From Treponema sp. (lineage in GTDB: Bacteria > Spirochaetota > Spirochaetia > Treponematales > Breznakiellaceae), in assembly GCA_031275035.1 (NCBI GenBank), contig JAISPH010000196.1:1-12226 (forward strand): a stretch of DNA of 12,226 bases, written 5' to 3'. Position numbers and translations under genes: made by a program. Every line of letters begins with the position of its first letter. Within the stretch, counting starts at the first letter, position 1. Shown one piece after another: positions 4,949 through 7,060 of this stretch. The notes under the pieces were generated by a model, which was not told the DNA's origin, searched no databases, and saw nothing but the letters and a program-made list of their open reading frames with translations.

Positions 4949-5104
4949 CTAATAGGGCTTTTTCTCGTCGGCAACGCTCAGTTTATACCGGCCCTTAGCC
5001 CGGCGGCGCTTTAATATCAGCCGCCCTCCCCGGGTTTTCATCCGGGCCCGGAAGCCGAATTTCCGGTTACGCTTAACCTTGCTGGGTTGATAGGTCCGCT
5101 TCAT
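4949..5104 (-). CDS. rpmH: 50S ribosomal protein L34
   Basis: 51 residues, very basic. It opens with the L34 signature [18 protein letters not shown] and continues through RARMKTRGG and [13 protein letters not shown]. The length is slightly above the usual 44-47 because of the short tail VADEKKPY. L34 is a small protein of the large ribosomal subunit. An AGGAG lies eight bases before the ATG. It is the first gene of the rpmH-rnpA-yidD-yidC-khpB block, and the best promoter is about 260 bases upstream. Confidence 0.97.
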
Positions 5105-5190
5105 GGGAACATCTCCTTGCCGTTTAACGGCTCTATTTTAAAGGTTCATAAAATCGAATGTAAACCCAAAGGCCAAAACCAATCAGTTCC

Positions 5191-5225
5191 GCCGCAGACC
5201 CCCGGTCCTTCCCCCGGGAAGCGGC
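5191..5225 (-). other. Stem in the rpmH mRNA leader
   Basis: GCCGC (5191-5195) pairs with GCGGC (5221-5225), and inside it CTTCCC (5208-5213) can pair with GGGAAG (5216-5221). It lies about 90 bases upstream of rpmH on the transcribed strand. It may be a leader structure controlling the ribosomal-protein mRNA, but no known L34 leader motif is recognised. Confidence 0.3.
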
Positions 5226-5366
5226 AAACGAACGCCTGGGCACGACTGTTCTCATAAGGTATTGTATTCGGGTTTGATACCTTTGTAACCACGGCAGAGC
5301 CCGAACCTAAGGTCCGGCGGGGCATTAAACCCTCAACACGAATAAACCCCTGAAAAGGCGAAACTC

Positions 5367-5395
5367 AGTATAAAAGAACGATCAAAATTGGTCAA
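5367..5395 (-). promoter_or_regulatory. Sigma-70-type promoter for the rpmH block
   Basis: On the minus strand TTGACC (5390-5395) and TATACT (5367-5372) are separated by exactly 17 bases. Each hexamer matches the consensus at 5 of 6 positions. Transcription would start near 5360 and give a leader of about 255 bases before the rpmH ATG. Confidence 0.7.
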
Positions 5396-5409
5396 GGAGC
5401 CCGCCCCCG

Positions 5410-5439
5410 CCCCGCATATAGACGCAGTTCGTATATATC
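5410..5439. repeat. Direct repeat, copy 1
   Basis: 30 bases beginning CCCCGCATATAGACG and ending CGTATATATC. Copy 2 starts at 5503, 93 bases further on, and matches with three substitutions and one missing base. Both copies lie upstream of the rpmH promoter. Function is unknown. Confidence 0.55.
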
Positions 5440-5502
5440 GCCCCAGGCCCTTCACTCCCGCCCTTTCCCGGAAGTAAAGCGAATGCGTGTTACATCTGCC
5501 TC

Positions 5503-5531
5503 CCCCGCAATAGACGTATTGCGTATATATC
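5503..5531. repeat. Direct repeat, copy 2, with internal palindrome
   Basis: 29 bases beginning CCCCGCAATAGACG and ending CGTATATATC. Unlike copy 1, this copy contains a perfect 7-bp inverted repeat, CGCAATA (5506-5512) and TATTGCG (5517-5523), around GACG. Confidence 0.55.
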
Positions 5532-5542
5532 CCGCCTCAAGT

Positions 5543-5570
5543 CCCGCCTTTCAAGGCGGGGAGCGTCATT
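5543..5570 (+). repeat. GC-rich hairpin with GGCGGGGA..GTCATT tail
   Basis: CCCGCCTT (5543-5550) pairs perfectly with AAGGCGGG (5553-5560). The 3' arm and what follows, GGCGGGGAGCGTCATT (5555-5570), match 15 of 16 bases of 8714-8729. This makes it a third relative of the inverted 25-bp repeat in the sugar-gene control region. Confidence 0.5.
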
Positions 5571-5589
5571 CCGGCCTTGGCCCGGGCCA

Positions 5590-5628
5590 TTTGGGACTGT
5601 TCCCGAATCATCCGGGACAAGTCCAAAA
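5590..5628. other. Imperfect long inverted repeat beside the 21-bp array
   Basis: Bases 5590-5605 and 5613-5628 are complementary at 13 of 16 positions (TTTGGGACT..TCCCG against CGGGA..AGTCCAAAA) with a 7-base loop. It ends 3 bases before the palindrome that opens the tandem array. There is no T-run, so it is not an obvious terminator. Confidence 0.4.
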
Positions 5629-5635
5629 CGGTTTC

Positions 5636-5761
5636 ATACAAGTATGAAACGATTCTATACAAGTATGAAACGATTCTATACATGTATAAAATGGTTCTAT
5701 ACAAGTATAAAACGATTCTATACAAGTATAAAATGATTCTATACAAGTATAAAATGGCTAC
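5636..5761. repeat. Six tandem 21-bp units, each with a TATAC-NN-GTATA dyad
   Basis: Six contiguous 21-base units start at 5636, 5657, 5678, 5699, 5720 and 5741. Each begins ATACAAGTAT (unit 3: ATACATGTAT) and continues RAAAYGRTTCT, with the last unit diverging at its end. The preceding base makes TATAC-AA-GTATA dyads in units 2 and 4-6, except that unit 2 has G in place of the final A. Unit 1 with its left flank is a perfect 20-bp palindrome, GTTTCATACAAGTATGAAAC (5631-5650), and unit 3 gives TATACATGTATA. Units 1 and 2 are identical; the rest differ by scattered substitutions. A 21-bp period equals two turns of B-DNA, so all dyads face the same side. The array is AT-rich inside GC-rich flanks. 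It resembles an array of operator, iteron or centromere-like sites; the ligand is unknown. Confidence 0.9.
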
Positions 5762-5869
5762 GGACAGGTCCGACACGGCGCGTTGGGCGCCGGGGGACAA
5801 GGGGAGGTCCCGCGGCGGCGGGGTTAAGGCTGCCGGAAACAAACAGAGCGTGTCATCCGGCGTTGTTTC

Positions 5870-7060
5870 TTATGCTGAAAGCTCCGCAAGCTGTTTCCGG
5901 TAGGCCTCAATGTAGGGGGCCAGTTTTTCCCGCTTTTCCCCCCGCCGGGCCTCGTAGTAGGTGCCCCCCACGGTAAAGCAGGCGAAGCCTCCGGCGGCGG
6001 TCCCCAGGATAACGCATTCCCGCAGATCCGCCTTTCCCCGGGGAAGCGTCTCAAGCTGTTCCGCCAGGCCCGCGATGATGCCGCCGGCGAAGTTGTCCCC
6101 GCAGCCGGTGGTATCCCCCCGGCGCTGGGGGTGAGCGGCCAGCTCCCGGTTGACCTCTTCGCATACCGGCATGGATTGCAGCTCCAGGGGGGCAAAGACC
6201 CCCTTCCCCGCGGCCAGCCTGACCGCCCGGGACCCCTCGGTGATAACCGCCGCCCCCGTCCCCCGGTCAAGGAACCAGCGGATGGCCTCTTCCGCCGAAG
6301 CGGCCCCGGAGGTTTTCAGGGCTTCATCCCGGTCGGCGACGAGGATGTCGATATAGGGATACGCGTCGTCCCCGGCGCCGAGTTTCCACTTTTTGCCGGG
6401 GGCGGTGATCTCGCTGCGGAAATCGTAGACCAGATTCACCAGGGTAACCGCGCCCCCCTTACGGGCCCGCCTGAGCAGGCCCGTAAGGCCGTCGTGCAGG
6501 GGGGGGACAAGGCCGGTTCCCCCAAAGGCGGCGATGCCCGCGTCAAAGAAGCGGTCCTCCAGATCTTCAGGGTGAAAAGAACCCGCCGCCCCGACAAGAT
6601 TGATGAAGGTCCGTTCCCCGTGGCCGTTGTCGTAGCTGGGGTCCGAGATTACATCGGTTCTGGGGGAGGGCTCTTCTTTTTTCAGAAGACGGTACTCTTT
6701 GAAGGGAAGCCGGTTCAGGGCGGATTCCACAAAGTCGCCCAGCGCGTCGGCGCCCCGGATGCCGAAGAACCGTACCTCGGCCTTGTCCCCCAGCATTTGG
6801 GCCGCATGGGCCAGGGATACCACCGAGGGCCCCCCCAGGTTGCGGGAACTGGGCTCCGCGCCGCCGGTTATCAGGGAAAGGGCGCTTTCGTAGGGCCGGC
6901 CCATGAAACGTTCAAAATCTTCGGCAAAAACCAGCCGCCCCGGCGTAAGGCCCCCGTCTCCTTCCTTCCGCGAAAGGGCCCCCTGAAAGGCGGCGGTGGA
7001 AAAATCGCCCCGGGCGTATAAAATGTCCATCAGGCAGCAGCCCGTTCCATGAATCACCAT
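5870..7060 (-). CDS. PfkB-family carbohydrate kinase
   Basis: 396 residues, a little long for the family (about 300-350). PfkB kinases move the ATP gamma-phosphate to a sugar or nucleoside hydroxyl in the cytoplasm. The N-terminal substrate region is VIHGTGCCLMDILYARGDF; LGGPSVVSLAHAAQMLG (75-91) is the glycine-rich first signature; GDTTGCGDNFAGG (315-327) is the second signature, with Asp322 as the expected catalytic base and Cys320 where most members have Ala. The C-terminal tail LAPYIEAYRKQLAEL is helical. The substrate cannot be read from sequence. Start: GGAGG five bases before the ATG, nine bases after the ROK stop, so both genes are clearly co-transcribed. With the divergent ABC genes it probably phosphorylates the imported sugar or its breakdown product. 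Confidence 0.9.
   Translation of the reverse strand: MVIHGTGCCLMDILYARGDFSTAAFQGALSRKEGDGGLTPGRLVFAEDFERFMGRPYESALSLITGGAEPSSRNLGGPSVVSLAHAAQMLGDKAEVRFFGIRGADALGDFVESALNRLPFKEYRLLKKEEPSPRTDVISDPSYDNGHGERTFINLVGAAGSFHPEDLEDRFFDAGIAAFGGTGLVPPLHDGLTGLLRRARKGGAVTLVNLVYDFRSEITAPGKKWKLGAGDDAYPYIDILVADRDEALKTSGAASAEEAIRWFLDRGTGAAVITEGSRAVRLAAGKGVFAPLELQSMPVCEEVNRELAAHPQRRGDTTGCGDNFAGGIIAGLAEQLETLPRGKADLRECVILGTAAGGFACFTVGGTYYEARRGEKREKLAPYIEAYRKQLAELSA

Follow-up and report, generated by a model that had tools for sequence, protein, structure and literature searches.

A tandem array of 21-bp dyad units between pfkB and rpmH belongs to a dispersed satellite class in treponeme-like spirochaetes

The pfkB-rpmH locus

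The window, by which we mean the whole stretch of 12,226 nucleotides of Treponema sp. DNA that was analysed, contains an array of short, symmetric tandem units flanked by two genes (Table 1). We take the upstream gene to be a sugar kinase gene of the pfkB type, from the family as we know it, and the downstream gene to be rpmH, for ribosomal protein L34, from its familiar signature.

Table 1. Features of the pfkB-rpmH region, in window coordinates.
Feature	Position	Strand	Basis and remarks
rpmH (ribosomal protein L34), presumed	4949..5104	-	signature, the same in 25 of 26 relatives; downstream neighbour of the array
Entire array of ten 21-bp units in phase (centres 5577.5 to 5766.5)	5567..5777	.	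phase scan
In-phase unit, dyad GGCC-TT-GGCC	5573..5582	.	arm score 4
In-phase unit, imperfect dyad GGGAC-TG-TTCCC	5593..5604	.	arm score 5
In-phase unit, dyad GGAC-AA-GTCC	5615..5624	.	arm score 4
Core, six like units with AAYGRTTC and TATACAAGTATRA (unit 1 CATAC..GTATG)	5631..5761	.	sequence, TRF, dyad positions
In-phase unit, dyad CGGAC-AG-GTCCG	5761..5772	.	arm score 5
Sugar kinase gene of pfkB type, presumed	5870..7060	-	ORF; 92% identical match in the genome of the closest relative; upstream neighbour of the array in the direction of transcription

Among the relatives found, the Treponema MAG isolate Im510_bin16 (locus L001 of genome G001; YidC, 92%) is the closest. Among the 43 yidC-region loci, 42 are titled Treponema, Spirochaetaceae or Spirochaetia and one is a Paenibacillaceae MAG; many of these isolates presumably come from termite guts, to judge by their names. 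Up to position 5159 the rpmH-yidC block of the window and L001 share 90% identity; beyond that point the match breaks except for one 58-bp stretch. The pfkB block matches a different contig of the same genome at 89% identity, as far as the end of pfkB, and no array was found near pfkB in the compared stretch of this relative. The array therefore lies where two blocks meet that the closest relative has on different contigs. This junction of the pfkB-ROK and rpmH-yidC blocks spans 5160-5870.

For a survey upstream of yidC we used 39 of the 43 locus starts (L027, L034, L035 and L042, cut off inside yidC, were omitted), of which 26 include at least 1.5 kb of upstream sequence. In none of these 26 relatives, one of which (L043) is the distant Paenibacillaceae MAG, is a 20-25-bp array present upstream of yidC up to a distance of 2.5 kb. 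Because no relative has such an array there, the array is, on this comparison of sequences, not an rpmH element. Three promoter-like matches lie between the array and rpmH (5395-5367, 5289-5261 and 5164-5135). The initial annotation put the array 240-370 bp upstream of the rpmH promoter, which agrees with the first two matches and disagrees with the one nearest rpmH, at about 470 bp. The tandem TATAC pattern, allowing up to one mismatch, was found in none of 97 related genomes, the exact tandem pattern in none of the viral contigs, and the window gave no Rfam match at gathering score.

In L001, rpmH is preceded at a distance of about 4 kb by a 21-bp array with other letters. A 21-bp dyad array at L175 13151-13346, again with other letters (contig C160 of G003), lies about 1.35 kb past the 3' end of a pfkB homologue, on the same side as in the window.

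Structure of the array

The core contains six dyads, centred at 5640.5, 5661.5, 5682.5, 5703.5, 5724.5 and 5745.5, so that six dyads two helical turns apart, as first described, are confirmed with a step of exactly 21 bp. TRF reports 5617-5754 with period 21, 6.6 copies, 88% matches, 0% indels and a score of 199. The form TATAC-NN-GTATA, ascribed earlier to all six units, is present in four; unit 1 reads CATAC-AA-GTATG and unit 2 TATAC-AA-GTATG. Unit 1 had also been called a perfect 20-bp palindrome, and is instead a 20-bp dyad in which nine perfect pairs flank a two-base centre, AA. Unit 3 does keep its symmetry through changes, as had been noted, with a centre that reads AT and not TG. At doubly variable pairs of the TRF core (six distinct units), 20 cells are complementary, compared with 14.3 in column shuffles (p 0.003).

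Folded as RNA and compared with shuffles, the array of the window gives z -8.0 on the plus strand and z -10.6 on the minus strand, the latter being the strand of pfkB and rpmH. It folds strongly on both strands, as any chain of dyads would. A CRISPR array was considered and rejected; the units of the window are contiguous and have no spacers.

The span first given for the array, which coincides with the core, proved too narrow, and in-phase dyads with other letters lie on both sides of it. A phase scan located these at centres 5577.5, 5598.5, 5619.5 and 5766.5, with arm scores of 4, 5, 4 and 5. A score of 4 is reached at 1.3% of positions in the whole window (1.5% locally) and a score of 5 at 0.5% (0.9% locally). 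In total the array has ten units in 21-bp phase without an indel in the window. Between outer and inner units the letters change on both arms, and paired changes keep the symmetry.

Farther out, no dyad was found at phases -4, -5, -7 and -8, nor at +7 to +11. Phase -6 (centre 5514.5) does carry a dyad in the 21-bp phase of the array, CAATA-GACG-TATTG, which may be due to chance because the phases between it and the array have none. This dyad is the 5504-5533 member of two related stretches between the array and rpmH, about 92 bp apart (the other at 5410-5442), that read ATAGACG and so on, followed by CGTATATATC.

A dispersed class of 21-bp arrays

In a census of 163 stretches of related DNA (1.91 Mb), arrays of at least three copies were strongly concentrated at period 21, with 44 arrays, compared with five at 18, none at 20, three at 22, six at 23 and one each at 24 and 25 bp. 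The sample is not random and is partly enriched for arrays: L124 and L126-L131 were chosen for octamer matches, and G009, G056 and G003 were sampled further once arrays had appeared there. L125 and L150 were removed before the census as repeats of L001 and L175. A further 40 stretches (505 kb, 35 of them first contigs of genomes) contained four arrays of period 21, one of 22, two of 23 and nine of other sizes; one of the four, L175, was already known through L150, and another, L193, lies inside a frame of 1440 codons.

The 55 arrays of 20-25 bp fall into 44 sequence families, and the letters differ from array to array. The sampled parts of G056 contain 15 families and those of G009 eight, and one family occurs at three loci of G001. 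G056 is dense in arrays, with 17 of 20-25 bp in 175 kb (11 stretches). No 5- or 6-mer is common to the arrays of one genome beyond what shuffles give in G001 (three families), G009 (eight) or G056 (15). By crude gene calls, 21 of the 55 arrays lie between co-directional genes, six in divergent and three in convergent gaps, 15 are bordered on one side by the end of a contig, and ten are inside long frames. At least two of these ten frames (L117 and L130) read as chance frames, and the ten arrays were retained in the other counts. Two of the 44 period-21 arrays, at L137 1450 and 1610, have sequence in common where their ends meet.

The array of the window is thus one copy of a dispersed non-coding 21-bp satellite class in treponeme-like spirochaetes. 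The initial annotation proposed that absence in relatives, combined with random unit lengths elsewhere, would point to repeat expansion without function. The array is indeed absent at this place in relatives, and unit lengths elsewhere are not random.

Several members of the collection deserve separate mention. L137, a 9.6-kb contig of G009, has six period-21 TRF rows from several families. Mixed 21- and 22-bp units with lasting phase shifts are found at L217 10067-10581 and L222 12102-12554. Dyads such as GGTGTCAGACACC are also present in arrays with units of 23 or 25 bp, a misfit to two helical turns, at L028 11465-11818, L130 1024-1228, L197 4382-4622 and L216 14620-15275.

The octamer AAYGRTTC is common to the arrays of the window and L001 and was tried as a mark of the class. 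It was rejected because it recurs weakly, in two of 30 period-21 arrays (set-aside contigs excluded) compared with 0.28 expected and none for the reversed octamer. A triple-octamer pattern matched in six of 97 genomes (34 matches), and its reverse in none. Three AAYGRTTC octamers at 21-bp spacing are also present in 14 IMG/VR contigs (L234-L247), perhaps as coding heptads.

Symmetry, strand and reading frame

Dyads are enriched across the class and are not universal. Best dyad scores exceed those of shuffles with z 7.8 over the 44 families, compared with z 2.0 for 18 control arrays of other periods. Taken singly, eight of the 44 families have a dyad at p <= 0.05 and 14 at p <= 0.10. An earlier test with a stiffer penalty gave eight of 29 period-21 arrays at p <= 0.05 and two at 0.01, in a set that included both L001 and L125, which are the same place.

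The earlier claim that symmetry survives substitution is borne out by paired changes. In the 18 clearly dyadic arrays, doubly variable pairs have 78 complementary cells compared with 59.8 in shuffles (sd 4.1; maximum of 1000 shuffles 72), a count to which the window alone contributes 20 and which the relatedness of units inflates. Flanking units in phase with an array reach a score of at least 4 in nine of 92 cases, with 2.7 expected; three of the nine are in the window, and outside it in-phase flanking dyads are weakly above chance.

Mismatches within the dyads of these 18 arrays have no overall strand bias, with 22 G.T and 17 A.C. Both kinds occur in eight arrays, one kind in eight and neither in two, and all five arrays with at least three such mismatches are mixed. 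This balance is what a strand-neutral constraint gives, with the numbers small and an RNA also compatible.

Selection on a peptide had been judged unsupported, and the larger sample agrees. The 44 period-21 arrays have on average 3.11 open frames, compared with 3.02 in column shuffles (sd 0.15), and 42 of them have an open frame where 42.0 are expected.

Constancy of unit length

Lasting phase shifts occur in one of the 44 period-21 arrays (8,021 bp), as four copies of one 22-bp unit type in L222. The ratio of net shifts to mismatches is therefore 4:792, all four from one unit type in one array, or 1:337 by distinct variants, with the 337 distinct substitutions spread over 43 arrays and the sole indel type in the 44th. 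Between the window and its closest relative, net shifts to substitutions are 6:70 in non-coding DNA, a small control of 482 aligned bases, and 10:787 in coding DNA. The arrays differ from the local non-coding DNA (Fisher p 6e-5; by distinct variants p 2e-4) and do not differ from coding DNA in net shifts (p 0.18 and 0.19). A gapped alignment places 46 gap bases in eight of the 44 arrays, and all but the four in L222 cancel within their cluster. Without the arrays inside long frames, one of 34 is shifted.

Simulated arrays passed through the same detector do show lasting shifts, which means that detection bias alone does not account for their rarity. At indel ratios of 0.10, 0.05 and 0.018, shifts appeared in 16-20 of 36-41, 14-20 of 40-42 and 8-10 of 37-40 arrays, respectively, in a simulation that assumes independent substitutions between units, which real ones are not. 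With zero indels, one of three runs gave two arrays with eight false shifts. Per substitution, length changes persist less often in the arrays than in local non-coding DNA and about as often as in coding DNA.

Possible roles of the array

Because unit length is kept while letters are free, symmetry is favoured and arrays occur in all gene orientations, the constraint may act on the geometry of double-stranded DNA. We tentatively favour, with clearly less than even confidence, the view that the array is a DNA-architecture scaffold for a putative symmetric, sequence-lax protein. Such a protein, of nucleoid type and with two-fold symmetry, would have little preference for sequence; it would bind every two helical turns along one face of the DNA and spread over the array. 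Copy number would vary through slippage or unequal crossing-over, and units of the wrong length would be lost. The array would then serve as a local DNA-architecture element and not as a regulator of rpmH. The dominance of period 21, the few net shifts, the dyad enrichment, the paired changes, and the lack of strand bias and of a coding signal, in gaps of all orientations, are consistent with a scaffold. Against it are the six 23-bp arrays, partly dyadic and a misfit to exactly two turns, the roughly two thirds of families without a dyad at p <= 0.10, the weak flanking dyads, and the lack of a common short word in the arrays of G009 and G056. Also against it is an indel constraint that is coding-like, with gap bases in some arrays.

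A mutational or selfish process is a close rival of the scaffold reading, and likewise possible without being probable. Copying at a fixed step of about 21 bp would make and spread arrays, and template switching at hairpins would make and mend dyads, with no function for the cell. Such a process would suit the differing letters, the absence of arrays at corresponding places in relatives and the one family at three loci of G001, and hairpin-templated correction would yield the paired changes observed. It would not lead one to expect, without selection on length, old-looking arrays with more than 15% mismatches and no phase shift (L137 275-501, with 52 mismatches in 227 bp), but this variation might date from the birth of an array by error-prone copying. 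We regard it as quite improbable that the array acts as RNA, transcribed into a chain of hairpins that serves as a small RNA, a protein sponge or a 3' stabiliser. The array does fold far better than shuffles, more so on the pfkB/rpmH strand, and transcription of 52-nt satellites has been reported for B. coagulans (PMC8161180, PMC8625621). The near balance of G.T and A.C mismatches (small numbers), with mixed kinds within arrays, the arrays in divergent and convergent gaps and the lack of an Rfam match at gathering score in the window speak against an RNA element.

The initial annotation read the array as binding sites (iteron, centromere-like or multi-operator), and a site array for one sequence-specific protein tied to rpmH is not supported. 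The same geometry with other letters occurs at many unrelated loci, the relatives surveyed upstream of yidC have no such array, none lies in the compared stretch around pfkB of the closest relative, and similarity to that relative upstream of rpmH ends at 5159 apart from the one short stretch. More broadly, we consider sequence-specific sites (operators of rpmH or pfkB, plasmid-type iterons or a centromere-like site) very unlikely. Phasing and dyads resemble such arrays and promoter-like matches lie between the array and rpmH, but the outer units differ in letters, the tandem TATAC pattern is absent from the related genomes, and no replication or partition gene was recognised by eye among the window ORFs. 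Least probable of all is a coding heptapeptide repeat, in which 21 bp would be seven codons. In its favour, 21 is divisible by three, the TRF stretch of the window is open in three frames, a few arrays lie in long frames (as in L193) and the indel constraint is coding-like. Open frames are no more frequent than in shuffles, 18- and 24-bp arrays are few, and 22-, 23- and 25-bp arrays exist, all of which argue against it.

If the scaffold reading is extended to the class, the arrays may amount to a DNA code almost free of letters. Selection would act on the two-turn length of the unit and on its two-fold symmetry and not on the letters, and the reader of the code would be a symmetric polymerising architectural protein that accepts almost any sequence. 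We regard this extension as unlikely. For bacterial satellites that keep their size while their letters vary, our data indicate which features may be constrained: length, with many substitutions and few net shifts, and, in part of the arrays, symmetry, through paired changes.

Comparison with known systems

REP/BIME elements are dispersed intergenic palindromes whose arms vary with lineage, with a conserved end tetranucleotide and a REP-associated transposase. The arrays described here are also dispersed intergenic palindromes, but head-to-tail, spacerless and at a fixed 21-bp step. Plasmid iterons and parS or centromere arrays have repeats at whole-helical-turn spacing, as here, and consist of like sites beside a replication or partition gene, whereas the present arrays occur at many loci and the letters of their sites are not conserved. 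Type III toxin-antitoxin RNA repeats are likewise short tandem repeats that fold, but are about 34-36 nt long and lie beside a toxin gene; the units here are of 21 bp and the array of the window lies between pfkB and rpmH.

The initial annotation knew of no described system with this layout. One has been described: Subirana and Messeguer report tandem repeats in Bacillus whose unit size is constant (20-21 or 52 nt) while the sequence varies, mostly non-coding and species-specific, with several repeat families per genome (PMC8161180). The authors equate 20-21 nt with two helix turns and put forward either a nucleoid protein that polymerises or small RNAs. Their 52-nt repeats, found in Bacillus and a few other Firmicutes, share constant length and variable letters with our arrays and differ in unit length (PMC8161180). 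The arrays of one species frequently have a short word in common there, which is not a condition, and one is reported for B. weihaiensis; the arrays of one genome here have no common short word beyond chance. The text of PMC8161180 contains none of the strings palindrom-, hairpin, dyad and spirochaet-, and treponema does not occur in PMC6749651 (a 2019 overview) or PMC8625621 (on transcription), by the same authors. A literature search of titles returned none on such repeats in treponemes.

The array of the window, with six like units and ten in phase, resembles the 20-21-nt satellites of PMC8161180 in its run of tandem units of near-constant length, and our arrays as a class resemble them in being non-coding, with free letters and several families per genome. 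They differ in occurring in treponeme-like spirochaetes, where those satellites were studied in Bacillus, and in having dyads with paired changes. Set beside PMC8161180, the class itself is known, and what is new here is the host group, the dyads with paired changes and the indel test.
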